From positions 1 to 48,517 of the forward strand of contig SCQH01000044.1 of the NCBI GenBank assembly GCA_004321925.1: a stretch of 48,517 nt of DNA. The letters are read 5' to 3'. Of this stretch, positions 9,498 to 48,517 are shown in pieces; positions within the stretch are counted from its first letter, which is position 1; each line of letters starts with the position of its first letter. The notes under the pieces were generated by a model that ran no database searches, had not been told where the DNA came from, and was given only the letters and a program-made list of their open reading frames with translations. The translations under genes and the position numbers were made by a program. The DNA comes from Nitrospirota bacterium. GTDB lineage: Bacteria > Nitrospirota > Thermodesulfovibrionia > Thermodesulfovibrionales > UBA6898.

Positions 9498-9514
9498 CCG
9501 TATAGTTGAAAGAA

Positions 9515-9550
9515 ACGGGGCATGGAATGTTAAAAGGTTCCATGCCCCGT
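9515..9550 (+). terminator. Perfect 13-bp stem-loop between two repeat-protein genes
   Basis: ACGGGGCATGGAA (9515-9527) pairs perfectly with TTCCATGCCCCGT (9538-9550) around a 10-nt loop. It lies 18 bp after one stop and 18 bp before the next ATG (9568), whose AGGAGG ribosome site is 9557-9562. There is no downstream T-run, so it may act as an RNA-processing or attenuation element rather than a classic terminator. Confidence 0.55.
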
Positions 9551-9567
9551 ATTAACAGGAGGTTTTG

Positions 9568-12348: not shown

Positions 12349-12374
12349 GAATACGAAGCGTAAAGGAGAGTGGA

Positions 12375-27749: not shown

Positions 27750-28790
27750 ATGCAGGCAAGAGATCACGTGCCCGTGCATAACCGGTCAGAGCCGTTGACC
27801 GTTACGCACTACCATAGAAGGTTTGACGACTCTTATTCGAGCATTGAGGGCCTGTTTGCGGAGATCCGCAGCGGGATGCCTCCCTTTATCAACTGTAAAA
27901 TAGTTGTCGCCCCGTTCGTCAGTCGCGGATTCTGGAGGCGACTGGCCAATATTATTACCGCACCTTTTTATCAGAGTGACGTCAACCATATTACCGGCGA
28001 CATCAATTATGTCTCTTTCCTGCTGAGCAGAAAGAAAACGATACTGACCATCCATGACTGTGTCGTCCTTGAGCGGTTAAGCGGGTTGAAAAAAGCAATA
28101 TTCTTTTTGTTCTGGTACTGGCTGCCGGAGAAACGTATCGGTATCATAACCGCTGTCTCCCACTCGACCAAGAAAGAACTGCTCCGGTATCTGCACTGCG
28201 ATCCGGAAAAGATACGGGTCATCCATAATTGTATTTCGGCTGATTTCAAACCACAGGCAAAGGTCTTCAATGCAACCAGGCCGGTCTTGCTCCAGATAGG
28301 GACCAGGTACAATAAGAACCTCATCCGCGTTGCCGAAGCGCTCCGGGATATCCCCTGCCACCTGAGGATCATTGGCGTCCTGAACAGGGAGCAATCTGCG
28401 GCCCTGTCACGGTTCAATATCGATTATTCGGCAAAGGCCGGTATAACCGGCCAGGAGATGGTAAGGGAATATCAGGATGCGGACATGCTCGTTTTCGTAT
28501 CGACCTATGAAGGTTTCGGCCTTCCTGTTGCCGAGGCCAATGCCGTTGGCCGGCCTGTGGTGACGAGCAACCTCCTGTCCATGCCTGAGGTTGCCGGTAC
28601 CGCAGCCTGCCTCGTTGATCCATACAGCGTCCCGGATATCAGAAAAGGTATACTGAGCGTTCTGTCCGACAGGGACTATCGTGAAAAACTGATAGCCGAT
28701 GGGTATGAGAACGCCAAACGGTTCAATGCAGCAATTATCGCCGGACAATACGCCGGGCTTTACGAAGAGGTGTATCGAAACAGCTTTTGA
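27750..28790 (+). CDS. GT4 family glycosyltransferase
   Basis: The 346-residue protein has a GT-B fold. The C-terminal donor-binding half shows STYEGFGLPVAEA (an E-x7-E motif, near 250-264) and GRPVVTSNLLSMPEVAG, both typical of GT4. The N-terminal half is short and lacks the usual glycine-rich start, beginning instead with HYHRRFDDSYSSIE. No clear ribosome site precedes ATG 27750; a GTG at 27768 is an alternative. The gene lies six bases after the GT2-polymerase fusion and its stop is inside the next frame, so it belongs to the same operon. It transfers an unknown nucleotide sugar to the repeat unit. Confidence 0.85.
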   Translation: MQARDHVPVHNRSEPLTVTHYHRRFDDSYSSIEGLFAEIRSGMPPFINCKIVVAPFVSRGFWRRLANIITAPFYQSDVNHITGDINYVSFLLSRKKTILTIHDCVVLERLSGLKKAIFFLFWYWLPEKRIGIITAVSHSTKKELLRYLHCDPEKIRVIHNCISADFKPQAKVFNATRPVLLQIGTRYNKNLIRVAEALRDIPCHLRIIGVLNREQSAALSRFNIDYSAKAGITGQEMVREYQDADMLVFVSTYEGFGLPVAEANAVGRPVVTSNLLSMPEVAGTAACLVDPYSVPDIRKGILSVLSDRDYREKLIADGYENAKRFNAAIIAGQYAGLYEEVYRNSF

Positions 28791-28948
28791 GAAAGAAAAT
28801 GATCTGTATGCCTGAAGCGTTCCCGGTAATAGATACAGTGCGGCGACGGTCAGATTTTATGGAGAACAGTATGAATGAAGAATGCGCGTGTTTTGAGGGT
28901 AAAAGGTGTTGTCATGATGAGCTGCCCCATCCTGCAGGGGCGGTCTTT

Positions 28949-31714
28949 ATGGCGGCAGTAAAATGCATGTATGGCATGATCGTCCTGCTGACGATGTTTG
29001 GCCTGGATTGGGGGACTGCTCAGGCGGAGGACTTTATATTCGAGACCTCAACCGTACGCCTGGTGATCGATGACAGCGGCTCTGCTAAAAGCATGCGGGA
29101 AAGAACAGGCGGCAGGGAACTGCTTGCCGGCAGCCCGGCGCCTCTTTTTTCGGTCCGGCGTGCAGGGAAATGGAACGCGGTCACGAAACTTGCCCGCGAG
29201 GGCGGGAACTTTCGGGCTCAATTCGGACAGTCAGGCATGTCTGCGGATCTACGGATATCTGCCGGCCCGGACCGCGTCGTGATCGAGCTGGTGCGTCTGG
29301 ACGCAGCCGGTGCTGAAGAGGTCAGGCTCGCCCAGGTCAGGGCGGGCGGGCTGCCTAATTCCGGGGTCACCCTTACCGTCCTATGGGACGCCCTGATCGC
29401 GATCAGCCTTATGGGGTTGAGCGACAAGGTGGATTCCCGGTTCGGAGAAGGCATGCTGCTTGCGTCGGTCTATCCCGAGTTCGGCATGCTCGGCGAGAAG
29501 GTTGCTCTGGTGACGGTTCCGACGCAGCAGTTCAGCGCAGCAGTTCAGCGAGTTGAAAAGGAATTCGGGCTGCCCTCGCCCATGATCGGCGGTGTCTGGG
29601 CAAAGGCATCATCTGATGTGCGGACAAGCTATCTTTTTACGGACCTGACGGAAGCGAATGCCGACGATACGATCAGGTATGCAAAACGGGCAGGCTTCAG
29701 ATACATCATGATCTATAGCCATATCTGGTCTTCGTCGCTCGGTTCTTATCCCATCAATCTCCGCTCCTTCCCCCGGGGAGAAGAGGGCCTGAAGACGGTG
29801 ATCGATAAGTGCCACGCGGCCGGGCTCAAGGTGGGCATGCATGTGATGACCAGCTTCGTGGGAAAGGATGATGCGTTCGCCTCTGCGCGGGTGCGGCATC
29901 TGTTCAGCGATGCCGGACAGGTGCTTTCGCGGGATATCGGGGCCAGCGACCGGGAGGTCCCGGCAGAGGGGAGTCTGTCAAAATTCCTGACGGGCGCATA
30001 CGGCCCGGCAAAAGACTTGCGGGTCGACGACGAGATCATCCGCTGCGAGACAGCAGGAGGCCCCGGCTCCACGGTGCTTATGCAGTGCCAGCGTGGTTAT
30101 GCCGGGACCAGACCCGCATTTCATAAGGCAGGTGCGAAGCTGCAGCATTTGGCCGAATACAGCGGTTTTTATCTCGCGGACCTTCGCACGCCGTTAAAGG
30201 AAGAGATAGCCGAGCGCATCTCGGGAGTGATCGATCGCTGCGGGTTCGACATGATATTCTTTGACGGAGCCGAGGTCAACTGCATCAATGGGCCTTGCTG
30301 GCACTGGGCAGGTCAGCAGGAACTGAGCATCACAAAGAGGGTCAAACGCGACCTCCTGATCGAGGGATCGGGAATGTCCCACTGGGGCTGGCATATGACG
30401 ACGCGGGGCTATTGCAGCGATTTTGCCGCAGTAGCCCCGAAGCAGTATCTCGACCACCACAAGATCGACTATTGGTGGAATTTCTATTTCCGAAGCTTTA
30501 TGCCCGTTGAACTCGGCTGGTGGGGGGTTCTGACGGCCACGCCTGACCACCCGGCAACAACGCCTGATGAGGCCGAGCTCTACGCGGTCAGGATGCTTGC
30601 CTTGAACACCCCGGTGTCGATCGAGACCACCCTTGACGCATTGCGGTCGAACGGCAGGACCGAGGAGATGCTGGCCATGCTCGGCAGGTATGAAGAACTG
30701 CGGCTGGGTGATGTTGTCCCCTCAACGATCCGGGAACAACTGCGGACAGGAGAATGGCATCTGACAAATAAGGACGGCCGCCGCCAGTTCAGCCAGATCA
30801 GATACCAGACAGTACGATCTGACGAGAGCGGTGAGGTTTTGGTCAGGAACGAATTCGCGCCGCAGAGATTGAAATTCCGGCTTCAGGCAGTTCCCGCACT
30901 GACGATGGTCGGCAACAGGTCAAACATTGCGCTGCTTCCCCCTGGTTCGCAGCTGGTCCTGAACAAGCCGGGTCCAACCGGGGTCTCGCCGGGAATGCTG
31001 GCTGGACGGATACTTTTTACGCAGGCAGGCGCCGGGCAGCCCGCTTCATCTTTTCCGGGCAGAGGGTCCAGTACGGTCCAGGGAAGTGCGCCTCCGAACC
31101 TCATGACCCACAGGGCACTTGCGCTGAATGTGAAAACTGAAGGGATGCCGCCGAAAGCCGGAGAAAAGGGGGCCGTCCTGAACGTCCAGCTGGAATCGGG
31201 AGGCTTATATCGGGATCATTACATTGACCTGGATTTCATCGGCGAGCGTGCGATCATTATCGCAGGATCGAACACAGAGCGAATGCTTCCAGAGCTGCGA
31301 CCTTCATACACGACATATGCCATCAATGCGGCGATGTCAGGATTCAACTATCAGAGCATCGATGCGGTCAATTTCCGGTGGATGCAGCAGTCGAGGACCA
31401 ATCCCCTGAAAGCTACGGTTACCCTTGTTGAGGCCCTTTCCGAAACGGATGCCCTGGTGAAGGACCCTGAGATCACGGTGGGAAGATCAAGGGTGGTCAT
31501 CCCGGGGACCCTGAAGACCGGAGACTATGTTGAGTATTGGGGGGATGGACCGGCACGGATATTCGATCGCAATGGACGGCAACTCTCAACAACTGAGGTC
31601 GTCGATGCACCGGTTCTTTCGACAGGAGAAAATAAAATGGTTGTAACATCCAAAGGAATTAAAATGCCGGTCAAAGTGACAACGATCTTGCTTGGTAAAT
31701 CATTGTCGTTTTAA
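28949..31714 (+). CDS. Putative secreted glycoside hydrolase-like protein (TIM-barrel)
   Basis: The start is placed at ATG 28949, after GCAGGGGCGG, because this gives a clean signal peptide (MAAVKCMYGMIVLLTMFGLDWGT..AQA, 26 residues). Upstream in-frame starts at 28871 (with GGAG) and 28799 would add 26-50 odd, cysteine-rich residues. The centre resembles a TIM-barrel glycosidase, with YIMIYSHIW, AAGLKVGMHVMTSFV, MIFFDGAE (D439) and LIEGSG (E472). These acid residues are plausible catalytic groups by analogy with alpha-galactosidase-like enzymes, but no family is named with confidence. The last ~200 residues look beta-rich and may bind carbohydrate. Within a polysaccharide locus this suggests an editing or release enzyme for the secreted polymer. 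Confidence 0.6.
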   Translation: MAAVKCMYGMIVLLTMFGLDWGTAQAEDFIFETSTVRLVIDDSGSAKSMRERTGGRELLAGSPAPLFSVRRAGKWNAVTKLAREGGNFRAQFGQSGMSADLRISAGPDRVVIELVRLDAAGAEEVRLAQVRAGGLPNSGVTLTVLWDALIAISLMGLSDKVDSRFGEGMLLASVYPEFGMLGEKVALVTVPTQQFSAAVQRVEKEFGLPSPMIGGVWAKASSDVRTSYLFTDLTEANADDTIRYAKRAGFRYIMIYSHIWSSSLGSYPINLRSFPRGEEGLKTVIDKCHAAGLKVGMHVMTSFVGKDDAFASARVRHLFSDAGQVLSRDIGASDREVPAEGSLSKFLTGAYGPAKDLRVDDEIIRCETAGGPGSTVLMQCQRGYAGTRPAFHKAGAKLQHLAEYSGFYLADLRTPLKEEIAERISGVIDRCGFDMIFFDGAEVNCINGPCWHWAGQQELSITKRVKRDLLIEGSGMSHWGWHMTTRGYCSDFAAVAPKQYLDHHKIDYWWNFYFRSFMPVELGWWGVLTATPDHPATTPDEAELYAVRMLALNTPVSIETTLDALRSNGRTEEMLAMLGRYEELRLGDVVPSTIREQLRTGEWHLTNKDGRRQFSQIRYQTVRSDESGEVLVRNEFAPQRLKFRLQAVPALTMVGNRSNIALLPPGSQLVLNKPGPTGVSPGMLAGRILFTQAGAGQPASSFPGRGSSTVQGSAPPNLMTHRALALNVKTEGMPPKAGEKGAVLNVQLESGGLYRDHYIDLDFIGERAIIIAGSNTERMLPELRPSYTTYAINAAMSGFNYQSIDAVNFRWMQQSRTNPLKATVTLVEALSETDALVKDPEITVGRSRVVIPGTLKTGDYVEYWGDGPARIFDRNGRQLSTTEVVDAPVLSTGENKMVVTSKGIKMPVKVTTILLGKSLSF

Positions 31715-36233: not shown

Positions 36234-38207
36234 GTGATTAAGCTGCAGGTTCAGTTGCTAATGCCACGATCATGGAGGGCAACAGAGTTGGCCATCGAGA
36301 CTGAAAAGAAGATACTTATTGTCGAGGACGAAGCCATAATAGCCTGCGACCTCCAGCGGAGGCTGGAGCATCAGGGTTACACCGTAACGTCCGCTGTCGC
36401 AACCGGCGAGGATGCCATAAAAAAGGCCGGCGAGGATTCCCCTGACCTGGTCCTGATGGATATCGTGCTGCTGGGGGAGCTCGACGGGATAGATGCGGCA
36501 GGCCAGATACGGGCACTCTATGGCATGCCCGTTGTCTATTTGACGGCCTATGCCGATGAACGGACCCTGGAACGCGCGAAATTGACCGAGCCCTTCGGAT
36601 ATGTCCTGAAACCCTTTGACGACCGTGAGCTCAGGAGCATCATCGAGATGGCCCTGTATAAGCACAATATCGAACGTCAGCTGAGGCAGAGCAATGAATT
36701 TCTGATGACGGTGATCGAGTCGATGAGCCATCCCTTCTATGTTATCGATGCGGATAACTTCACCGTGGTTCTGGCAAACACTGCCGCCAGATTCGGCACT
36801 TTGACCGATAAAAGCTTCTGCTACGCCCTTACTCATAACGCGGACAGTCCCTGCAGCGGGACCGATCATCCCTGTACGATCATGGAGATCCGGAGAACAG
36901 GCAAGCCGGTACAGCTTGAGCATGTCCATTATACCCATGACGGAAAGGCCCTGACCTATCAGATATACGGCTACCCTGTTTTTGACAAGCAGGGGAAGGT
37001 GGCCAGGGTCATCGAATATGCGCTTGACGTGACCGAGAACAGGATACTGGAGGGCCAGCTTCGACAGTCTCAGAAGATGGAATCGATAGGGAGACTGGCC
37101 GGCGGGATCGCACATGATTTCAATAATCTGCTGACGGCTATCCTGGGCTATAGCGAACTGGCCATGGCCGAGCTGCCGGAGGGCCACCCTGTTAGACGGC
37201 AGGTGAACATCATTGCAGAGGCCGGCAACAAGGCGGCTGCCCTGGTGCGGCAGCTCCTTGCCTTCAGCAAAAAGCAGGTCCTCGAGGTGAAGGTATTAAA
37301 CATAAATGAAGTTGTCGAGAATATCGGGAAGATCCTCAGCCTGGTCATAGGAGAGGATATTATCCTTGATATGAACCTGAGCCCCGGCATCTGGAGCGTC
37401 AGGGCCGACCCCGGTCAGCTGGAGCAGGTGCTGATGAACCTGGCAGTAAATGCACGGGACGCCATGCCCTGCGGCGGCCGGCTAACCGTAGAGACCGAAA
37501 ATGTGGAGCTGCATGAAGAATATGGCAGGACCCATGAAGGGGTAAAACCCGGCCCATATATTATGCTGGCGGTGACGGACACGGGCTCGGGAATAAGGCC
37601 TGAAGTGGTCGAGAAGATCTTTGAGCCTTTCTTCTCGACAAAGGGAAATAAAGGGACCGGGCTTGGACTATCGACGGTCTACGGGATCGTTAAGCAGCAC
37701 AATGGCCATATATACGTATACAGTGAAGAGGGCATCGGTACGACCTTCAAGGTCTATCTGCCGGCAGGGGTTGAGAATAGTGGAGGCACTGCCGAAGCCC
37801 CGGCCAAACCCCTGGACCTCCATGGGAGCGAGACTATTTTGGTTGTGGATGATGAGCCTTCGATCAGGCGGCTTATTGTCGATACGCTCGAACCGCTGGG
37901 GTATCACCTTTTAGAGGCATCCTGCGGAGAGGAAGCATTGCAGAGGGGCATCATGTTCAAGGGGACGATAGATCTCCTGCTGACTGACGTCATCATGCCG
38001 GATATGAACGGCCATGAGCTTGCCCAGAGGCTGAAGCTGACCAGGCCTGAAACGGACATCCTTTACATGTCCGGGTACACTGACGAGACCATATCGAGAC
38101 TCGGCATAGCTCATATCAAAAAGATGTTCGTCCAGAAACCGCTGACCCCCAAAAAACTTGCCGGGATAATCCGGGAGATCCTCAATGAGAGACGGGACCG
38201 GACCTGA
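36234..38207 (+). CDS. Hybrid sensor: receiver - PAS - histidine kinase - receiver
   Basis: The 657-residue protein starts at GTG 36234, eight bases after AAGGA. There is no membrane segment, so it is cytoplasmic. An N-terminal receiver occupies about 25-145, with acidic pair E31-D32 and phosphoacceptor D76 (LVLMDIV). A PAS-like domain (about 155-275) contains C196, H201, C207 and C214, which could bind metal or respond to redox. The NtrB-type kinase core follows, with IAHDFNN (H294), an N box (NLAVNARDAM), DTGSGI and GTGLGLSTVYG. A second receiver has D585 (LLLTDVIMPD). The end overlaps the next gene by 23 bp. It probably passes phosphate to the LuxR-type regulator; the signal is unknown. 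Confidence 0.9.
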   Translation: MIKLQVQLLMPRSWRATELAIETEKKILIVEDEAIIACDLQRRLEHQGYTVTSAVATGEDAIKKAGEDSPDLVLMDIVLLGELDGIDAAGQIRALYGMPVVYLTAYADERTLERAKLTEPFGYVLKPFDDRELRSIIEMALYKHNIERQLRQSNEFLMTVIESMSHPFYVIDADNFTVVLANTAARFGTLTDKSFCYALTHNADSPCSGTDHPCTIMEIRRTGKPVQLEHVHYTHDGKALTYQIYGYPVFDKQGKVARVIEYALDVTENRILEGQLRQSQKMESIGRLAGGIAHDFNNLLTAILGYSELAMAELPEGHPVRRQVNIIAEAGNKAAALVRQLLAFSKKQVLEVKVLNINEVVENIGKILSLVIGEDIILDMNLSPGIWSVRADPGQLEQVLMNLAVNARDAMPCGGRLTVETENVELHEEYGRTHEGVKPGPYIMLAVTDTGSGIRPEVVEKIFEPFFSTKGNKGTGLGLSTVYGIVKQHNGHIYVYSEEGIGTTFKVYLPAGVENSGGTAEAPAKPLDLHGSETILVVDDEPSIRRLIVDTLEPLGYHLLEASCGEEALQRGIMFKGTIDLLLTDVIMPDMNGHELAQRLKLTRPETDILYMSGYTDETISRLGIAHIKKMFVQKPLTPKKLAGIIREILNERRDRT

Positions 38208-39468
38208 AGGCGCTGAGATGACCGTTTCCGCCGGCAGTTTCAGGATAATGGTCGCCGAGGACGAGGGGATCATCGCCAAAGACCTCGAACGCCGCCTGAC
38301 CAAACAGGGGTATTCAGTCGCCGCGGTCGTGGCCTCCGGCGAGGACGCCATACGCAAGGCTCAGGAGACGCTGCCTGACCTCATCTTGATGGATATCGTC
38401 CTCAACGGGGAGATCGACGGCATAGATGCCGCAGCGGAGATACGGCGATGTCTTGATGTCCCGGTGATCTATCTGACGGCCTATGCCGATGACAAGATCC
38501 TCCAGCGGGCCAAACTGACGGAGCCTTACGGATATATCATCAAGCCCTTTGATGACCGCTCCCTCTGCAGTGCCATTGAGATGTCCCTGTATAAACATAC
38601 CATGGAACGGAAGGTCAGGGAGAGCGAGGAGTGGCTCTCGACGATCCTGCGCAGCATCGGTGACGGGGTCATAGCCTCAAACGCCGGGGGCAGCGTGATC
38701 TTTATGAACACGGTGGCGGAAAAGCTCACCGGCTGGACCTTTGATGAGGCAAAGGGGAGGCATATATCCGAGATCTTTATGATCGTCAACGGGCAGGAGA
38801 GGGCTTCCTGCCTGGATACCTGGGCTGCGATCATGGAGTCAGGAGCAACGACAAGTCTTTCCCAGGACTGCACCCTTACGGCAAAGGATGGCACCGTGCG
38901 GGTAATAGGGGACAGCGGCGCTCCGATCAGGGGCAGGCATGGCGGCATCCTCGGTATCGTGCTCGTCTTTCGGGATGTCACGGAACAGAGGAAGATGGAC
39001 CTCGCACTGAGAGAATCCGGGCAAAAGCTGCGCATGCACGCCCATGAACTCGAAGAGAGCAATACGGCCCTGAAGGTACTTCTGAAACAGCGCGAGAACG
39101 ACCGGAAGGAACTCGAGGAAAACATCCTGGCCAATGTAAAGCAGCTGATCCTTCCTTATCTCGAAAAACTCAAGAAGAACAAGGCCATGTCCGAGGAGCT
39201 TGCCTATCTGAACATAGTGGAGAGGAATCTTAAGGAGATCATATCCCCTTTTTCGATCAGGCTCTCATCCAAGTATTATGGCCTTACCCCGCGTGAGATC
39301 ATGATCGCCGAACTTATCAAGGAGGGGAAGCAGGACAAGGACATCATGGACGTTCTTAACATATCGTACGAAACAGTCAAATCGCATCGCCAGAACATAC
39401 GAAAGAAACTCGGCATCTACGCCAAACGGACGAACCTCAGGGCCCACCTCCTGATGCTGAGTGAATGA
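38185..39468 (+). CDS. Response regulator: receiver - PAS - LuxR-type DNA-binding domain
   Basis: The 427-residue protein carries a receiver (about 18-130) with D70 as phosphoacceptor and LTAYADD, clearly similar to the N-terminal receiver of the upstream kinase. A PAS domain covers about 142-270. A helical, probably coiled-coil linker follows (about 272-340). The C-terminal HTH reads LTPREIMIAELIKEG, then SYETVKSHRQNIRKKLGI, the LuxR/NarL pattern. ATG 38185 overlaps the kinase gene; ATG 38218 is an alternative. It may control the downstream NHL/cytochrome genes or the polysaccharide genes, but no binding site is visible. Confidence 0.9.
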   Translation: MRDGTGPEGAEMTVSAGSFRIMVAEDEGIIAKDLERRLTKQGYSVAAVVASGEDAIRKAQETLPDLILMDIVLNGEIDGIDAAAEIRRCLDVPVIYLTAYADDKILQRAKLTEPYGYIIKPFDDRSLCSAIEMSLYKHTMERKVRESEEWLSTILRSIGDGVIASNAGGSVIFMNTVAEKLTGWTFDEAKGRHISEIFMIVNGQERASCLDTWAAIMESGATTSLSQDCTLTAKDGTVRVIGDSGAPIRGRHGGILGIVLVFRDVTEQRKMDLALRESGQKLRMHAHELEESNTALKVLLKQRENDRKELEENILANVKQLILPYLEKLKKNKAMSEELAYLNIVERNLKEIISPFSIRLSSKYYGLTPREIMIAELIKEGKQDKDIMDVLNISYETVKSHRQNIRKKLGIYAKRTNLRAHLLMLSE

Positions 39469-39704: not shown

Positions 39705-42374
39705 ATGACAAACAGCAATTCTTTTCAGTTCAACAATGTCCTGCTTAAAGGTTTAGCCAGGATGATCTCCACGGGCCTGATCGCGGCTGTGCTGATGTCC
39801 TGCATGTCTGGCATTTCCTCTGCTGAAGGGGGACTGACGGAATATACAAGGCTTGCTGACCTTGTTCTACCCGGACGACCGGTCAGGGCATCGGTGGACG
39901 CATCCGGCAATATCTATGTGGTTGAAGCGGCAACGTCTTATCTTGCCAAGTATTCTCCTCAAGGGGAAGTCCTCACCAGCCTCCCGCTCTCTTCTGCCCC
40001 AACAGCAGTCAAGGTTGCTGATGACGGGCTTCTCTATATCGGATTAAAGGACAAAATAGAAATATATGACGGCACTACCCTCCGGAAGACTGTTCAGGGC
40101 ATAGCGCAGCCAGTAGCTATAGAAGTATCCTCAACAGGCTCCATCTATGCAGTTGATCTGAAGCGTTATTGCGTTACGATCATCTCTCCGGGTGGTGATA
40201 TTGCGGTGGTAGGAGATCATAATTCCTTCGGAAGCGACCTGCGCGACCTGGTGCTCGATGAGGCAAACCAGGAGTTCTACCTGCTTGACCGCAACGAACC
40301 TGTTTCCGGCTCCTCTGTCTGGCGCGTCCAGGTGTTCGACCTTAACGGGAGCCTGCTGCGGAGCTTTTCTCATTTCGGCTCTGCCACCGACGGCACGCTG
40401 ATATCGGCCTCAAGCCTGGCCGTGGATGCTCAGAGAAGGGTCTATATAGCTGATAACGTCCAGAACATCATCGGGGTATTTGATCATGCCGGAAATTACC
40501 TGGGTTCTTTGTACGACACGGCAGATCCGTACTATAACCCGGTTGAGATGGAATACAGGAACAACCGCCTCTACCTTATGTCGTTTCTCGGGAACAAGGT
40601 GACGGTCCTCGGGTTCGACGGGTACGCAGACCTTGTGGTATTGCCTGACAGGCTGGACCTGAAGGTCCAGGGCCCGTTTGTCAGCGGAGAGAGGCGCATG
40701 ACCCTTTCCAGCACCGGCAGGGGAACGCTCAACTGGAGCGCAGCCTCAGATCCGGACTGGCTCGGCCTGAGCAAAACAGCAGGCAGTATCGGGGGAGGTC
40801 TTGAGGATGAGGCCGAGGTGGCCGTAAATACAACCGGTCTCGGACCAGGCACGCATACCGGAAAGATAACGTTTTCATTTAACGGCGGCTCATCGACCGT
40901 TTCAGTGACCGTGGACGTCCTGCCGCCTCCTGTGCTGAGCGTATCGCCTGCACGCATGGCGTTCGACACATACTCAGGGACAATGCTCTCACGACAGGCT
41001 ACCATAGAACTTAATAATGACCTTTCAGGGGCCCTGGCCTGGACAGCGGTATCTGACAGCAGGTGGCTGGGTATCTCACCTGCCTCAGGGGAGTCCAACA
41101 CGATGACGACTGCGCTCGTCACTGTCGATGCGGCAGGGCTGCTGCCCGGTACGTATCGCGGAAAGATCTCCGTTGCAGCAGACGGGAATTCTGTTATCCC
41201 GGCGGAAGTATCAGTGGAACTTACCGTCCTTGCAAACAACACCATCCGGGTTAAGACCAATAAGGGGAATGCGGTCTTTTCCATAAGCGGCCCGCAAAGT
41301 TTTCAGGGCAGCGGCAGTTCCTGGTCGGTCAGCAACGTCGCTGACGGTTCATACACCATCACCTATGCAGAAGTAAGGGGAGCGAGGACCCCCGGGCCTG
41401 AGACACAGACAGTCGCCGGCGGCAGTACCATTATCTTTACCGGGAATTATAACGATATAGCGCATGAGAGCATCATCGTGACACAGGCCGGCCGGATGGA
41501 TACGACCGGTCTCAAGCTTATCGATATCTACGGCAACGTCAGGGAGTTTGCTGCCTTCGGCCTTATGCGCGGAGGCCTGGTGACCGCCCTTGGAGATCTC
41601 GACGGGGACGGGCTGAACGAGATCGCGGCAGCGATCCATCACGGGAGTTCCCGGGTCGGAATATTTGACCAGTCCGGCCGGGAGATCTTCAAGTTTGCGG
41701 CCTTCACCGGATCAGGCACCTATGATATCAGCGCCGCAGACCTCAGCGCCGACGGTTCATCAGAGCTGATCATCTCAAAAAGTTCTGGAACGCCGGTAGT
41801 AAGGGTGCTAAGCTTTAGTAAAGGCATGGTGGCCGATACCGGCATCCACTTCATACCGTATGGAGAGGCGAAGGGTGCGGACCTGCTTGTGGCTGCAGGA
41901 GATGTTGACGGGGATGGGAAGACGGATATCGTCACGGCCCTGGCCTCGGACAGCGCGATCCTGATAAAGGTCTGGTCGCCTGATATGTCCGAGGTTCACG
42001 GGAAATGGACCGTCAGCCTGAAAAAGGAGATATCCGTTGACCTTGCGCCGCGGGCAAGCCTTAAAGGCCTTGCCGTGAACCCGGCGGCCGGCAACAGGGC
42101 AGCTGATGTCATGGTCATGCGCAATGACGGCCACATGACCATCGTCGGCGCTGACGGCCCGGCACGGGAGGTCAGCGTCGGGGTTGAAGGCATCACGGAC
42201 ATGGAGGCCGGAGACGTCGATGGCGACGGAAATGTTGAGATCATAACCGGGTTGACGGATGGTACCGTGAAGATATTCAGTCTTGACGGTATCCTGGTCA
42301 ACTCAATGAGGACCTTTATCACGAGGTCGGGGGTCAGGGTCAGTGTCGGTGTCGCAGGGGGAGTGGTCAGATGA
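39705..42374 (+). CDS. Exported NHL-propeller / BACON / FG-GAP repeat protein
   Basis: The start is ATG 39705 behind AGGGAGA. A hydrophobic signal (about 18-38, ending near SSAEGG) is preceded by an 18-residue polar tail. LMSC within it is a poor lipobox, so lipidation is uncertain. Residues about 45-315 look like an NHL-type beta-propeller (VDASGNIYVV, VSSTGSIYAVD, VDAQRRVYIAD). Two BACON-like domains follow (about 320-405 and 410-510; WLGLSKTAGS and WLGISPASGE), then a short beta domain. The end is an FG-GAP/VCBS-like region with LGDLDGDG, AGDVDGDG and AGDVDGDG calcium loops. The stop overlaps the multihaem gene by ATGA. It is probably a surface or periplasmic partner of that cytochrome. 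Confidence 0.8.
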   Translation: MTNSNSFQFNNVLLKGLARMISTGLIAAVLMSCMSGISSAEGGLTEYTRLADLVLPGRPVRASVDASGNIYVVEAATSYLAKYSPQGEVLTSLPLSSAPTAVKVADDGLLYIGLKDKIEIYDGTTLRKTVQGIAQPVAIEVSSTGSIYAVDLKRYCVTIISPGGDIAVVGDHNSFGSDLRDLVLDEANQEFYLLDRNEPVSGSSVWRVQVFDLNGSLLRSFSHFGSATDGTLISASSLAVDAQRRVYIADNVQNIIGVFDHAGNYLGSLYDTADPYYNPVEMEYRNNRLYLMSFLGNKVTVLGFDGYADLVVLPDRLDLKVQGPFVSGERRMTLSSTGRGTLNWSAASDPDWLGLSKTAGSIGGGLEDEAEVAVNTTGLGPGTHTGKITFSFNGGSSTVSVTVDVLPPPVLSVSPARMAFDTYSGTMLSRQATIELNNDLSGALAWTAVSDSRWLGISPASGESNTMTTALVTVDAAGLLPGTYRGKISVAADGNSVIPAEVSVELTVLANNTIRVKTNKGNAVFSISGPQSFQGSGSSWSVSNVADGSYTITYAEVRGARTPGPETQTVAGGSTIIFTGNYNDIAHESIIVTQAGRMDTTGLKLIDIYGNVREFAAFGLMRGGLVTALGDLDGDGLNEIAAAIHHGSSRVGIFDQSGREIFKFAAFTGSGTYDISAADLSADGSSELIISKSSGTPVVRVLSFSKGMVADTGIHFIPYGEAKGADLLVAAGDVDGDGKTDIVTALASDSAILIKVWSPDMSEVHGKWTVSLKKEISVDLAPRASLKGLAVNPAAGNRAADVMVMRNDGHMTIVGADGPAREVSVGVEGITDMEAGDVDGDGNVEIITGLTDGTVKIFSLDGILVNSMRTFITRSGVRVSVGVAGGVVR

Positions 42375-45300
42375 GATATGCTGAGGGGAAAAAGGCACTT
42401 GTGTGGTCGGCAGTTGCGGTGCTGCTGCTCGCGCTGGTGTCTGACCTGTATAGCCTTGACTATCCCCATAACGCAGTGAACAGCATAAGCTGCGGTAACT
42501 GCCACTGGGTCCATGGAACTTCTATGCCGGCCTGGCTGACAAAAGGAGTGACACCGGACGATACGATCAATAACAACCGGTGTCAGCAGTGCCACGACAG
42601 CATCCCCGGCCCTGCTGTCGTCACCCATTCAGCGTACAGCACCGGAAGTGCGAAATGGGACGGCAACTGGGGAGTCGAGTGTGTTGACTGCCACAACCCG
42701 CATCAACAGCGGCAGCACAGGAGATGGGGCGCGGAAGCCTACCTGCAGACCGGGACCGTTGCTTCGATCGGGGTCTATGATGCAGGACAGAATGAAACAC
42801 CGGTAACCCTTTCCGCAGCTCTCGGGACCGAATACGAGGGATATTACCTGATCCCCAACACGCAGTACAGGGCTTTCAGCTACAAGATAAAGGAGAGCAC
42901 GCAGGGCAGAAGTGATATGAAAGTGAAAGGCCAGGTGAACACGGCCTATGCCGGAAGCGGCAAACCCTTTGCGATCGTCTACGCGAAGAATGTCACGGAT
43001 AATGTGTCCTATATCAACCCCGGCGGAATGCTCAGGAGCGTCAGCACCAAACTGTTCAGCCGGAACGGCCTCGGTGACGATTCGAACAACCATACAAGTT
43101 CCGACAAGATCTGCGAGGCCTGCCATACCAGGACCTCCTATCACCGGTATGACACGACGGAACAGTCCGATACATCACATCACAATAACGAATACTGTAT
43201 AAGCTGCCATTCCCACACCAACGGGTTTGCCCATGGGGGCGGCAGCGGCGGGAGCGGCTGCATAGCATGCCACGGACATGACGCCGGGTATGAATACAGC
43301 CCCGGGCAGTTCAGCCAGGGGAAGGGTACCTTTACGTCCCATTCAACGCATACGGAGAACGACAGCGACGACGTCAGGGGGCCGCATATCGCCTGCGATG
43401 CCTGCCACGACACCGCCAACTTCCCGTATTTCAAATCAGGGACAGACGTAAACGGCGACGGAAGGTATTCCCTCGCTGAGACCGATGTCTGCAACCCCTG
43501 CCATAGTCCGGCAGGGACGTATGACGGGGTCAATGATCCGGTGGTCGGTGCAAAGAAGAACTGGAAAGCGGGTGTCTATGACGGCAGCATGCTTAAGGCC
43601 GGCAAGGAGAAGTGGTGTGCAGGCTGTCACGACAACGGGGCATCGGCTATCGGCGGCGTGAACGCCCCGAATGTCATCGGCGACGAAAACGGAGCATACA
43701 CCTACGGCACCGGCTGGGGCTTCTATAAGACCGGCCACGGGCTGCCTTCCGCTGAAACATATCCGGCCAGCGGCGGAGTCATCGACGGAGCCGGCAAGGG
43801 TTGCCTGGATTGCCATGATGCGACTACTTCCCACATCGACGGCCTTGCGAGGACGTTTGATGACGGCAACAGCAGCACCACCGATCCGAGCGTCTATCGC
43901 ATAGGCTACCGGCTCAAATTGGTTGCCTCGGGCCAAGGGACCGGCGCCAGCACACAGGAACCCATGCTTGTCCCCTGGCCTGCTCCAACAGTAAACAGCG
44001 CCAACAATTACCGGCTCTGCGTCAATTGCCATAATTCCGGGCCATTTATGGATTCCGGCAATATGAATACAAATCTGATCAGCACAGGGACCGACGGCAC
44101 GAAAAACCGTCATGAGTTCCACTTGGGCTTTACTTACCAATTACGCTATTCCTCTGACTGGGCCAGCACGGTGAACAGCCAAATCAATTGTGTTACCTGC
44201 CACAATGTGCACGGTTCCACCCGTCTTGCCATGGTGCGGGACGGAAAGCTGATCGGGAGGGAGCCTGGATTACAGATATGGTACAACAACAGCGCCATTG
44301 TAAATCCCACCACTCCGCCTGATCCCCAGGACCTGCCTCTCACCGCCAGCACCGGCACGATCTGGATACCCGGCAGTGCGGGAAACCTCTGTGGACATTG
44401 TCACGGCGGGGGAGTCTCATCGATCGAAGACAGGACGCCATATCAGAATGTGCAGGAGACGCCGACCCTTGAGTGGACCGGCGAGAACGGCTACACGAAT
44501 GACGGGGTTAACCCGAACAGCGGCCCCAGCGGAAGCAGTTTTACCTTCCGGGTCACATATACCGACACCAACAACAACGCGCCGATAACCTACCAGGTTT
44601 GGGTGGATACAAACGACAACGGTGTATACGACCCCGGCGAGAAGTTTAATATGAATGAAGTCGATTCCGTTGATAAAAATTATTATAACGGGAAGCTGTA
44701 CACCTATACCATGCCGCTTTCAAAGGCAGTCGACAATACCTTCAATTACCGCTTCAAGTTCTCCGACGGCACTGCGGATGCTACAGGAGACCCCGCTTCC
44801 GACAGGACGGTTACAGTAACTAACAACGCACCGATCCTTTCCTGGACCGGCGAGTCTTATTACCAGGACTCTGGCGTTTATCCGCCGTCCGGTGGAAACA
44901 ACGCCACCTATACGTTCCGAGTCAACTATAAAGATGCGGACAACGAGTGCCCGCCCGCAGCGAGCGACATCCAGGTCTGGATCGATGAGAACAATAATGG
45001 CACATACGATCCGGGTGAGCAACACAACATGACCGCGGCAGACGGCAATGCCTGCTCAAGCGGCAGGGTTTATACCTACAGCTCGACATTGGCCAGTATC
45101 GGCGATGGTGAGCTATCATACACGTTCCGGGCATCTGATGGCTTTGCCCCAGCTGCAACCGATGCCGAGCCTCTGAGCGATAGTATCGTAACAGTTTTGT
45201 CCGTAACCAACACGCCTCCTCAGCTTGACTGGGAGAGTGGGGCCTGCCGGACAGAAGGTGTCAGCCCGCGCTCCGGTGCGGCTGGCGCTGATTTTACGTT

Positions 45301-48300
45301 CCTGGTTAAATATACAGACCAGAATAACTCGTGCCCTGCTTCAGGCAGCAGCAACATCCAGGTCTGGATCGATGAGAACAACAACGGGATATATGAGCCA
45401 GGCGAGAAATATAATCTAACCGAGGTCGACGCCGGCGATACGGACTGCACAAACGGCAAGCTTTACAAAACAACAAGAACGCTTGCATACACGGGCGACG
45501 GAAACCTCAACTACCGTTTCTATGCGACGGACGGCACCCAGACCGCAATCGGCGATCCTGCGGATTACGACGGCACGGTGACCGTTGTCAACGGCGCCCG
45601 CAAGGTCAGACCGACCGGCGGCAGCGGCTGGTATAGCACCATACAATCTGCAGTCGCTGCCAATCAGACGATCCTAGTCTATCCAAATGCTGATTTTACT
45701 CCGGCTACGTATAATGAAAGCGTTGCGGTGAATAGTGTCAGCAATTTGACTATTCGCTCGGTCTGCGGTCCGGATTACACAATAATAGACGGTGTGGGCA
45801 GCGGTTATGCGGTCTGGGGCAATTCCAGCAGCAGCAATCTTACGGTGGACGGGTTCTCGCTTACTGGAGACACAAATGGAATATACGCAAACGGCAGCAC
45901 TCCCGTAACCGTTTCGAATTGTAAGATCTTCGGCAATACTGGCGTCGGTGTTTCTGCAAGTAACGGCGCAAATCTGGCGATTGATAACTGCGAGATATAC
46001 TCAAACGCAAGCGCAGCAGAGCTTTACGGCGGCGGCATATACCTGAACGGCGGGACCCATACAATCCTGAATTCAACAATCAGAAACAATACAAGCCAAA
46101 CCGGAGCGGGCCTATATACCGTCAATGTTGTGTCTGCGACTATCACAGATACCACGATAAGGGACAACACGGCAACCGGCATTGCTGGCGGCGTATATAT
46201 TGCCGGCGGCACGGTCAATCTGCGCAAGTCTACGATCAGCGGCAACACGTCTTCCTCCGCCGGCGGCGGGTTATACACAAACAGCAGTCCAACGGTTAAT
46301 ATTGAAAACTGTCTCCTCGTAAAGAACCAGGGAACTGCCGGCGGCATGCTATACCTCAACTCCGGCACGGTAACCGTCAGGAACTGCACCATTGCCGATA
46401 ATCAGGCTACTTCCGGCAATGGCGGGGCCATCTACACGAACAATATCGCTGTCATCGTGAGGAACAGCATTTTCTGGAACAATCTTGCCTTTGGTGACGG
46501 TCATAATCTCTATAAGAATGGCGCTCTCCTTACGAACGGCAGCACTATAACCGATTCCGATATCATGACCGGCCGGTATTATATCGGCAACTGCGTACCT
46601 ACCTATGCAAACAATATAGCAACTGATCCGTTCTTTGTCGGCAGCGACAATTATCATCTGCAAGCCAACTCACCGGCTATAGACATGGCGAATGCAGCAT
46701 ATGCCCCGGCCGACGACAGAGACGGCAACGCGCGGCCCCAGGGCAGCGGCTATGATATGGGCGCATATGAGGTTGCTTCAGGGATGCCTGAAACTGAGGC
46801 TCCTGTTGTGACGAATTTCGCCGCAACGAGTCCGTCTTCAAGCCGCAATATTCCGATAGCGGTCTTCACGGCTACCGATAATACGGGCGTAACCGGCTAC
46901 AGGATAACGACATCACCGACGCCGCCGTCAGCAAGCGAAGGGGGCTGGTCTTCTACGGCTCCTGCAACATATCTGGTGACTTCCGACGGCACCCATATAT
47001 TGTATCCATGGGCAAAGGATGCCTCGGGCAACGTATCAGCGGCATTCGGTTCGCCGGCGACGGTTGTTGTGGATGCGACTGCGCCGAACGTGACTGCATT
47101 CACGGCCACAAGTCCCTCAATGAGCCTGAACATACAAATAACCTCATTTACGGCTTTTGATGTAGTAGGGGTGACAGGATATCATATAACCACGAACTCC
47201 ACACCGCCGGCAGCAGGCGGAGGCGGATGGTCGGGCACGGCGCCGACGACCTACACGGTCAGCTCGGAAGGGACCTACACGCTTTATCCATGGGCAAAAG
47301 ATGCGATCGGCAATGTGTCGGCCGTATATGCAACACCCATAACGGTTGTCGTTGACACAACGCCCCCGACCGTAAGCAGCACAACGCCTTCAAACGGGGC
47401 GACGGGCGTAATTAGCAATAGTCCAGTAACCATCAACTGGAATGAAAACGTTGACTGCTCAACAGTTACTACTTTCACCGTGACAATAAGCCCTGCTTCC
47501 GGATGGATAAGGACATCCTGCATCGGAAGTCAGGCGGTCTTCACACCGTCCGGCCAGAGCAACTCAACACTTTACAGCGTGACCGTATCTACATCGGTCA
47601 AGGATGCAGCAGGCAATGCAATGGCCTCGCCCTTTGAGTTCTCGTACACAACGGCAGCAGTATCCAATTACGCGCCAGTGCTGAACTGGGCGAGTGCTAC
47701 TAACTGCCTTGCTGAAGGAGTAAGGCCGCGCACCGGGGCAATGGACGCTGACTTCGAATTTCGGGTCAAATACAGCGATGCGGACAACCAGTGCCCGACC
47801 TCCATCCGTGTGACTGTAAACGGGACACTGTATGACCTCACAGACAACGACGGAGCATCGTGCCAGACAGGGCGGACTTATTACCGGTCGATAGAAATAG
47901 AAACTGCCGGTGACCTTAATTACTCTTTCTCAGCTTCGGACGGGATTGATACCGCCACCGGCACGCCCACCACCAACCATACGGTCAGTGTCATTAATAC
48001 AACATACAAGGTCAGACCGACGGGCGGCAGCGGATGGTATAGTGATCTCGCCACCGCGTATAACGCGACCCCGGCCTCGGGTATGCTTCTGGTATATCCG
48101 AATGCCGACTTTACAGCAGCCACCTATGCAGGCGGCCTGTCCAATATCAACAAGACGAACCGCACACTCCAGTCTGTCTGCGGAGCAGACCTTACGATCA
48201 TTTCCGGAGGAGCCAATGTCATTAGCCTCCAGGGCAATGACGGCGCGGTTATCGATGGCTTCAGTATAACCGCCGGAACTACTTATGGTATCTACTCAAA

Positions 48301-48517
48301 CAGTGATTCCCTGACCGTCAAAAACTGCAAGATCTATTCGAATCCTACCGGCATACACCTGAACAACGGCTGTAATCCGGTCAGTATCCAAAACAGTGAG
48401 ATTTACAACAATACGTCCTATGGGATAAATTCTCCAAGCACGCTAAATCTTGTCAGTATTGCGAACAGTAATATACACAACAACGGAGGCGGCTCCACGA
48501 ACGGCGCTGGTATTGCC
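42371..48517 (+). CDS. Giant multiheme c-type cytochrome with EF-hand-like, Ig-like and parallel beta-helix domains (open at right edge)
   Basis: ATG 42371 follows GGGGGAG (42357-42363) and overlaps the upstream stop. The frame stays open for 2049 codons to the window end. A signal peptide (core ALVWSAVAVLLLALVS) is followed by 13 CXXCH haem sites from CGNCH (42491) to CGHCH (44390-44404): CGNCH, CQQCH, CVDCH, CEACH, CISCH, CIACH, CDACH, CNPCH, CAGCH, CLDCH, CVNCH, CVTCH, CGHCH. Three Ig-like units with EF-hand-like loops follow (44606, 44984, 45371), then a beta-helix (about 45600-46780), two TATSPS-type units (about 46800-47360), a Big_5-like domain, a fourth Ig-like unit and a second beta-helix. 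It is probably an extracellular or surface electron-transfer protein. Confidence 0.9.
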   Translation, partial: MRYAEGKKALVWSAVAVLLLALVSDLYSLDYPHNAVNSISCGNCHWVHGTSMPAWLTKGVTPDDTINNNRCQQCHDSIPGPAVVTHSAYSTGSAKWDGNWGVECVDCHNPHQQRQHRRWGAEAYLQTGTVASIGVYDAGQNETPVTLSAALGTEYEGYYLIPNTQYRAFSYKIKESTQGRSDMKVKGQVNTAYAGSGKPFAIVYAKNVTDNVSYINPGGMLRSVSTKLFSRNGLGDDSNNHTSSDKICEACHTRTSYHRYDTTEQSDTSHHNNEYCISCHSHTNGFAHGGGSGGSGCIACHGHDAGYEYSPGQFSQGKGTFTSHSTHTENDSDDVRGPHIACDACHDTANFPYFKSGTDVNGDGRYSLAETDVCNPCHSPAGTYDGVNDPVVGAKKNWKAGVYDGSMLKAGKEKWCAGCHDNGASAIGGVNAPNVIGDENGAYTYGTGWGFYKTGHGLPSAETYPASGGVIDGAGKGCLDCHDATTSHIDGLARTFDDGNSSTTDPSVYRIGYRLKLVASGQGTGASTQEPMLVPWPAPTVNSANNYRLCVNCHNSGPFMDSGNMNTNLISTGTDGTKNRHEFHLGFTYQLRYSSDWASTVNSQINCVTCHNVHGSTRLAMVRDGKLIGREPGLQIWYNNSAIVNPTTPPDPQDLPLTASTGTIWIPGSAGNLCGHCHGGGVSSIEDRTPYQNVQETPTLEWTGENGYTNDGVNPNSGPSGSSFTFRVTYTDTNNNAPITYQVWVDTNDNGVYDPGEKFNMNEVDSVDKNYYNGKLYTYTMPLSKAVDNTFNYRFKFSDGTADATGDPASDRTVTVTNNAPILSWTGESYYQDSGVYPPSGGNNATYTFRVNYKDADNECPPAASDIQVWIDENNNGTYDPGEQHNMTAADGNACSSGRVYTYSSTLASIGDGELSYTFRASDGFAPAATDAEPLSDSIVTVLSVTNTPPQLDWESGACRTEGVSPRSGAAGADFTFLVKYTDQNNSCPASGSSNIQVWIDENNNGIYEPGEKYNLTEVDAGDTDCTNGKLYKTTRTLAYTGDGNLNYRFYATDGTQTAIGDPADYDGTVTVVNGARKVRPTGGSGWYSTIQSAVAANQTILVYPNADFTPATYNESVAVNSVSNLTIRSVCGPDYTIIDGVGSGYAVWGNSSSSNLTVDGFSLTGDTNGIYANGSTPVTVSNCKIFGNTGVGVSASNGANLAIDNCEIYSNASAAELYGGGIYLNGGTHTILNSTIRNNTSQTGAGLYTVNVVSATITDTTIRDNTATGIAGGVYIAGGTVNLRKSTISGNTSSSAGGGLYTNSSPTVNIENCLLVKNQGTAGGMLYLNSGTVTVRNCTIADNQATSGNGGAIYTNNIAVIVRNSIFWNNLAFGDGHNLYKNGALLTNGSTITDSDIMTGRYYIGNCVPTYANNIATDPFFVGSDNYHLQANSPAIDMANAAYAPADDRDGNARPQGSGYDMGAYEVASGMPETEAPVVTNFAATSPSSSRNIPIAVFTATDNTGVTGYRITTSPTPPSASEGGWSSTAPATYLVTSDGTHILYPWAKDASGNVSAAFGSPATVVVDATAPNVTAFTATSPSMSLNIQITSFTAFDVVGVTGYHITTNSTPPAAGGGGWSGTAPTTYTVSSEGTYTLYPWAKDAIGNVSAVYATPITVVVDTTPPTVSSTTPSNGATGVISNSPVTINWNENVDCSTVTTFTVTISPASGWIRTSCIGSQAVFTPSGQSNSTLYSVTVSTSVKDAAGNAMASPFEFSYTTAAVSNYAPVLNWASATNCLAEGVRPRTGAMDADFEFRVKYSDADNQCPTSIRVTVNGTLYDLTDNDGASCQTGRTYYRSIEIETAGDLNYSFSASDGIDTATGTPTTNHTVSVINTTYKVRPTGGSGWYSDLATAYNATPASGMLLVYPNADFTAATYAGGLSNINKTNRTLQSVCGADLTIISGGANVISLQGNDGAVIDGFSITAGTTYGIYSNSDSLTVKNCKIYSNPTGIHLNNGCNPVSIQNSEIYNNTSYGINSPSTLNLVSIANSNIHNNGGGSTNGAGIA
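45208..46780 (+). repeat. Module copy 1 in the giant cytochrome: Ig-like unit plus beta-helix
   Basis: This module runs from TPPQLDWESG through KVRPTGGSGWYS (45602) and LVYPNADFTPATY to a row of short N-rich coils (NSTIRNNT, STISGNTSS). The same order recurs at 47674-48517, showing an internal duplication. Confidence 0.75.
47674..48517 (+). repeat. Module copy 2 in the giant cytochrome (cut by right edge)
   Basis: APVLNWASATNCLAEGV, KVRPTGGSGWYSD (48008) and LVYPNADFTAATY repeat the first module in the same order. The EF-hand-like loop of copy 1 is replaced here by a shorter loop (VNGTLYDLTDNDG). The beta-helix continues past the window. Confidence 0.75.

Follow-up and report, generated by a model that had tools for sequence, protein, structure and literature searches.

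A 13-haem cytochrome with a putative adhesin-type arm in a Nitrospirota bacterium

One end of a Nitrospirota contig encodes a giant c-type cytochrome whose haems are confined to the N-terminal part of the chain. With moderate confidence, we take the protein to be an exported extracellular multihaem cytochrome: a long haem-free arm, built of Ig-like and beta-helix domains, bears a 13-haem head for electron transfer. The fusion probably holds the electron-transferring head at the outer cell surface or in slime. The window, the whole stretch of DNA that was analysed, is the entire contig C50 (48,517 bp), and its principal features are collected in Table 1 together with the homologous fusions.

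The cytochrome frame, 42371-48517 (+), stays open over 2049 codons and lacks a stop because the contig ends there. The initial annotation had reported thirteen CXXCH sites in the first third, followed by more than 1300 residues of Ig-like and beta-helix domains with no stop by the window edge, and this description holds: exactly 13 CXXCH motifs were counted (aa 41-678), and ~1,360 haem-free residues with Ig-like, beta-helix and Big_5 domains follow in the window. The missing end was located in the same genome, on contig C30, by using the C-terminus of a homologue (L089) as query against the genome's own contigs; searching these with the beta-helix and choice_anch_Q families had not recovered it. 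The reverse strand of C30 (6,200 bp) opens inside the second beta-helix, where it is 82% identical to L089, and the frame ends in a stop after ~260 residues with the terminal sequence DMGADEYKP. The start of C30 (reverse strand; bases 6190-6200, L102 = G000:C30) carries TCTTCCGATCT, presumably the end of an Illumina adapter, which it resembles, and the first few C30 codons are therefore not genuine. The join of C50 and C30 is supported because the next gene on C30 encodes a PAS-GGDEF protein, like the gene after the homologous cytochrome in L065. Extension to the stop adds no CXXCH motif, leaving the total at 13, and the C30 end contains no C-terminal anchor. Apart from a gap of ~28 residues, the full-length cytochrome thus comprises ~2,335 aa with 13 haems. 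Its predicted mature start, LDYPHN, recurs in similar form in homologues (LDYPHS, LDAPHT), and from its sequence the 13-haem cytochrome is probably exported.

Table 1. Features of the cytochrome locus and homologous haem-Ig-beta-helix fusions
Feature	Location	Strand	Details
Response-regulator/PAS/histidine-kinase hybrid	36234..38207	+	Pfam; same place in L065, 72% identity
Response regulator, PAS and LuxR-type (GerE) output	38185..39468	+	Pfam; 67% identity in L065
Partner protein, 890 aa	39702..42374	+	NHL/beta-propeller, two BACON, FG-GAP repeats
Giant 13-haem cytochrome	42371..48517	+	ATG start, 2049 aa in window, cut at contig end
Putative type I signal peptide	42371..42454	+	aa 1-28, by eye, without lipobox
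Haem domain	42455..44440	+	13 CXXCH; Pfam Paired_CXXCH_1, Cytochrome_C7
Three tandem Ig-like repeats (LxWTGExxYxxDGVxPxSG...)	44462..45595	+	aa 698-1075; repeat HMM, AlphaFold2, Foldseek
First right-handed parallel beta-helix, choice_anch_Q end	45641..46780	+	aa 1091-1470
Two OmpL47-type/FN3-like linker repeats	46781..47350	+	Weak NCBIfam OmpL47 match; internal repeat 59% identity
Big_5 bacterial Ig-like domain	47354..47653	+	Pfam; 69-72% identity to L088
Fourth Ig-like repeat	47675..48001	+	Repeat HMM
Second beta-helix (tip), start	48041..48517	+	Runs on into contig C30
Cytochrome C-terminal end	G000:C30:5392-6189	-	Last ~260 aa; ~28 aa lacking between contigs C50 and C30
Fusion homologue L065	G024		2819 aa; closest full-length homologue locus
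Fusion homologue L089	G339		2553 aa
Fusion homologue L088	G246		
Fusion homologue L092	G064		
Fusion homologue L035	Sedimenticola MAG		
Fusion homologue L033	Actinomycetota MAG		
Fusion homologue L032	Coriobacteriia MAG		
Fusion homologue L094	G373		Middle longer, single Ig repeat

The haem-free arm amounts to ~1,640 residues in the full-length chain, more than two thirds of which is without haem. Matches to Pfam and NCBIfam models within the arm include Beta_helix (1.3e-33), choice_anch_Q and Big_5 (3.1e-18). The AlphaFold2 model of aa 691-1475, with a mean pLDDT of 63, contained three beta-sandwiches followed in the coil region, mostly at 80-92, by a parallel beta-helix. With this model, Foldseek returned Ig-type adhesion proteins, the E. 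coli adhesin FdeC and beta-helix glycosidases; as the whole-model TM-scores were low, these matches support the domain type only. The presence of beta-helix and Ig domains is suggestive of an adhesin-type arm with putative surface or ligand binding, although the Ig repeats and beta-helix could also be a passive spacer.

The head and the tip of the protein appear to have different pasts. Compared with L065, a family-level relative, the haem domain is 70% identical and the tip beta-helix 30%, whereas L089, a class-level relative, shares 54% identity in the haem domain and 81% in the tip (82% on the C30 part). Likewise, Big_5 is 69% and the haem domain 52% identical to L088. The C-terminal beta-helix tip would therefore have a history distinct from that of the haem domain and may have been exchanged independently, as expected of adhesins with exchangeable tips. 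Third-codon positions of the window protein and L089 are alike at a fraction of 0.57 in the tip and 0.38 in the haem domain; since the likeness in the tip is far from identity, either the exchange lies some time back or strong constraint acts on the tip.

The initial annotation had proposed a wire- or tether-like carrier. A tether is plausible given the haem-free repeat arm and the exchangeable tip, but a wire is not supported: the haems are confined to the N-terminal 30% of ~2,335 aa, and the haem-free arm precludes haem hopping along the whole molecule, so that the term is wrong for the entire protein. Further, neither phmmer nor a profile search of the PDB with the haem domain returned any OmcS, OmcE or OmcZ entry. 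Like these filaments, the window protein would be an extracellular c-type cytochrome, but its haem domain is not detectably homologous to them, and OmcS, OmcE and OmcZ are small polymerising subunits with 4, 6 or 8 haems.

The link to nanowires is instead indirect, through paralogous gene pairs located behind OmcE-like tetrahaem genes. On contig C60 of the same genome, the order is a SurA/PpiC PPIase, an NHL propeller, a tetrahaem, a heptahaem and a second tetrahaem protein, the partner and a giant multihaem cytochrome (MHC). The first tetrahaem protein matches PDB 7TFS (E 1.5e-24), which is the OmcE filament (PMC12954529), and the second matches 9yuq (E 4e-22) and 7TFS (E 2.2e-19). The loci L071, L072 and L074 repeat the C60 cluster by size, haem number and order. 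Thus, the gene pair of the window belongs to a family of loci that also encode filament-type cytochromes, the window locus itself being without such a gene. Based on these clusters, the giant cytochrome might be regarded as a nanowire accessory, that is, a cap, base or assembly factor that links OmcE-type filaments to the cell surface or a mineral; the beta-propeller protein would then serve as a chaperone. In favour of this role, paralogous pairs lie directly behind OmcE-like tetrahaem genes that are accompanied by genes for a PPIase and an NHL propeller, both in this genome and at several related loci. However, the OmcE-like gene is absent not only from the window locus but also from its counterparts in G024, G246, G339 and G064, and the paralogues that do have OmcE-like neighbours carry up to 41 haems, with no Ig/beta-helix arm found by the repeat models. 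We consider the accessory role rather unlikely for the window protein.

A similar set of propeller, PPIase and large MHCs also speaks for the accessory role: Skennerton et al. (2017, PMC5539420) describe a SEEP-SRB1/HotSeep-1 operon encoding a six-bladed propeller, a PPIase, and 16-haem and 26-haem cytochromes. As described there, this operon shares with the window locus large exported cytochromes without membrane anchor next to a beta-propeller protein, and with the paralogous C60 cluster the propeller, the PPIase and several MHCs. It differs in its haem numbers and in that no adhesin arm is mentioned in the passages describing it, while the window locus lacks a PPIase and has a propeller/BACON/FG-GAP protein of ~900 aa as the only partner.

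A gene cluster conserved across the taxonomic order, seen in L073, L071, L072 and L074, runs PPIase, NHL propeller, 4-haem, 7-haem and 4-haem proteins, partner, and a giant cytochrome with at least 30 haems, so that OmcE-like subunits adjoin giant cytochromes; L070, L075, L076 and L084 contain similar clusters. The paralogue on contig C46 (L004 260-15358) has 2679 aa, 22 CXXCH motifs, an SBBP propeller and thrombospondin-type repeats; it is divergent from nifHDK, and its propeller partner lies downstream, not upstream. An NHL-repeat frame of at least 2673 aa (L081 11878-19899 (-), G004:C48) has three CXXCH motifs near its cut end, and the fetched piece may misrepresent the true domain order.

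The partner of the window cytochrome starts with a signal-peptide-like sequence (likely Met near 39762), and its stop overlaps the cytochrome start in an ATGA (42371-42374). Partner homologues adjoin giant cytochromes in seven related genomes (G024, G002, G017, G012, G019, G003 and G006) as well as on the own contigs C60 and C46, bringing the loci in the own genome to three with the window. A histidine-kinase and LuxR pair analogous to that upstream of the window pair stands ahead of the cassette in L094. Neither a porin-cytochrome conduit nor an OmcE-like gene was found at the window locus; the scanned upstream genes gave no match to porin or multihaem families, and the downstream side is covered by C30 only. 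The genome also contains type II secretin genes.

A few kb upstream of the cytochrome, at 15466-35657, lies an exopolysaccharide export and synthesis cluster comprising Poly_export/SLBB, YjbH, Wzz/GNVR, a Wzx-like flippase and several glycosyltransferases and methyltransferases. A 975-aa frame within this cluster (28787-31714) gave no Pfam match. With such a cluster nearby, the cytochrome could be a matrix-bound electron store, serving as a redox buffer or stepping stone in biofilm exopolysaccharide with no defined partner. This would be consistent with a cytochrome without cell anchor and with the GGDEF and sensor genes on its flanks. However, this neighbourhood is not conserved: in G024 the homologous locus lacks the exopolysaccharide cluster at its side, so that a linkage of the cytochrome to the cluster was rejected, and an independently exchanged tip suggests a specific target. 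We therefore judge an electron store of this kind to be unlikely.

The haem domain itself has a strongly conserved core, CxPCHSPxGxYDGVxDxxxGAKxNWxxGVY...LKAGKEKWCAGCHD. Its CXXCH motifs begin at aa 41, 71, 104, 248, 276, 297, 342, 374, 416, 478, 550, 607 and 674, and all 26 cysteines of aa 1-690 lie inside them; 2,000 shuffles of the haem region gave a mean of 0.04 CXXCH and a maximum of 2. The region has 21 spare histidines as potential distal ligands, nine of which are conserved in 13 or more of the 13-14 relatives with sequence at that position, a pattern that would be expected for bis-His haems. AlphaFold2 on the haem domain with 14 sequences reached a pLDDT of 33 and a pTM of 0.21. PF22113, the MtrC/MtrF domain, matches some members of the haem family (L065, E 1e-14; L035, E 1.3e-11), but not the window cytochrome up to E 1. 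The latter differs further from MtrC, MtrF and OmcA in being without a lipobox (by eye), and no MtrA or MtrB neighbours were found. In the PDB, the haem domain matched 9yuq at 5e-5 for the whole sequence, with single stretches weak.

One PDB match bears on a catalytic role. The haem profile matches the octahaem nitrite reductase 8rv0 over 94 residues (whole-sequence E 6.5e-8), as might be expected if the protein were an extracellular or periplasmic terminal reductase (e.g., acting on nitrite, tetrathionate or metals) whose accessory domains localise the substrate. However, the match is partial, Pfam gives no reductase family match, and the cytochrome contains neither CXXCK nor CX3-17CH variants, differing in its lack of non-CXXCH sites and of a family-level match from NrfA and the octahaem nitrite or tetrathionate reductases. 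The identification as an octahaem nitrite reductase was accordingly rejected, and a terminal reductase of any kind is very improbable; nor does the haem domain correspond to a common periplasmic reductase, a concern attached to the initial annotation.

A search for the same architecture, suggested at the same time, was carried out with repeat models built from the window protein and two homologues and run over the fetched long frames with at least five CXXCH; L065 and L035 were included in the models and match by construction. BLAST with the window sequence alone gives the same domain order. Eight other genomes, from Nitrospirota, Sedimenticola, Actinomycetota and Coriobacteriia, encode haems, Ig repeats and a beta-helix in this order within a single frame, often with more Ig and beta-helix domains after them. 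In L066 (G006), the contig end cuts the frame within the first Ig repeat. In L088 (10160-18367, G246), the frame breaks between 16288 and 16349, and the Big_5 and tip domains continue in a downstream frame, reflecting either a sequencing error or a decayed gene. In a wider sample, the haem profile matches in 109 of 396 genomes of the phylum Nitrospirota; the complete architecture is present in only a handful of the loci fetched from those 109 genomes. An assembly or frameshift artefact uniting a cytochrome gene with an adhesin gene, as could be suspected from the contig end inside the gene and from the break within the arm of L088, is refuted by this recurrence, since eight other genomes share the junction, the Ig repeat directly after the haems being 39-57% identical, and the frame has no stop or frame change. 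The fusion of cytochrome and arm is genuine.

Returning to the exported cytochrome with a haem-bearing head and a haem-free arm, we infer its secretion, location, electron direction and binding target as follows. The chain would cross the inner membrane by Sec, and 13 bis-His c-haems would be loaded in the periplasm. The cytochrome might then leave the cell with its co-translated beta-propeller partner, type II secretins being encoded. The arm may keep the protein at the cell surface, within exopolysaccharide, or in contact with a mineral or a second cell, and the head could take electrons from, or give them to, outer-surface conduits or the OmcE-type filaments encoded elsewhere in the genome. 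The C-terminus of the Coriobacteriia homologue has a hydrophobic tail resembling a surface anchor, and the arm may therefore be a cell-side stalk in that lineage.

In a limited literature search, the sole relevant precedent found was the ANME MHC type C; these extracellular multihaem cytochromes are very large, contain a pectin-lyase (parallel beta-helix) domain but no S-layer domain, and are proposed to recognise the cell surface of the partner (Chadwick et al. 2022, PMC9012536). The likeness is one of architecture, as both combine a multihaem region and a pectin-lyase-type beta-helix in one chain. However, the ANME proteins are archaeal, with the beta-helix N-terminal, and belong to a group with 20-80 haems (PMC9012536), whereas in the window protein, which is bacterial (Nitrospirota), 13 N-terminal haems precede the Ig repeats and the two beta-helices of the C-terminal part. 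The same limited search yielded no description of a bacterial cytochrome that has its haems at the N-terminus, Ig repeats after them and beta-helices at the C-terminus, and an earlier one is possible. We regard the bacterial architecture as a variant of the cytochrome and beta-helix type known from ANME MHC-C.

More broadly, and tentatively, the homologues could represent a family of 'redox adhesins' in Nitrospirota, Gammaproteobacteria and Actinomycetota, with a conserved multihaem head, exchangeable Ig/beta-helix tips and the beta-propeller protein as dedicated partner. If so, such proteins would aim electron exchange at a chosen surface, be it a partner cell, a mineral or the cell's own matrix. 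In bacteria, the fusion is the counterpart of the pectin-lyase cytochromes known from methane-oxidising archaea. To our knowledge, little has been established about how bacteria fasten their extracellular cytochromes to a given acceptor or partner. A haem head, an exchangeable arm and a conserved propeller partner make the question of attachment testable with one gene pair.

Two other regions encode proteins with CXXCH motifs. In a gammaproteobacterial MAG, a frame of at least 1745 aa with 43 CXXCH motifs (L039 1-5235 (-)) stands beside a relative of the window haem domain. In the window, a 927-aa protein with a MauG/CCP match and two CXXCH motifs (9565-12348) is flanked by two proteins of ~970 aa with He_PIG Ig-like domains (6582-9497 and 12342-15269), and this set (6582-15269) resembles a further cassette for surface redox chemistry or maturation.
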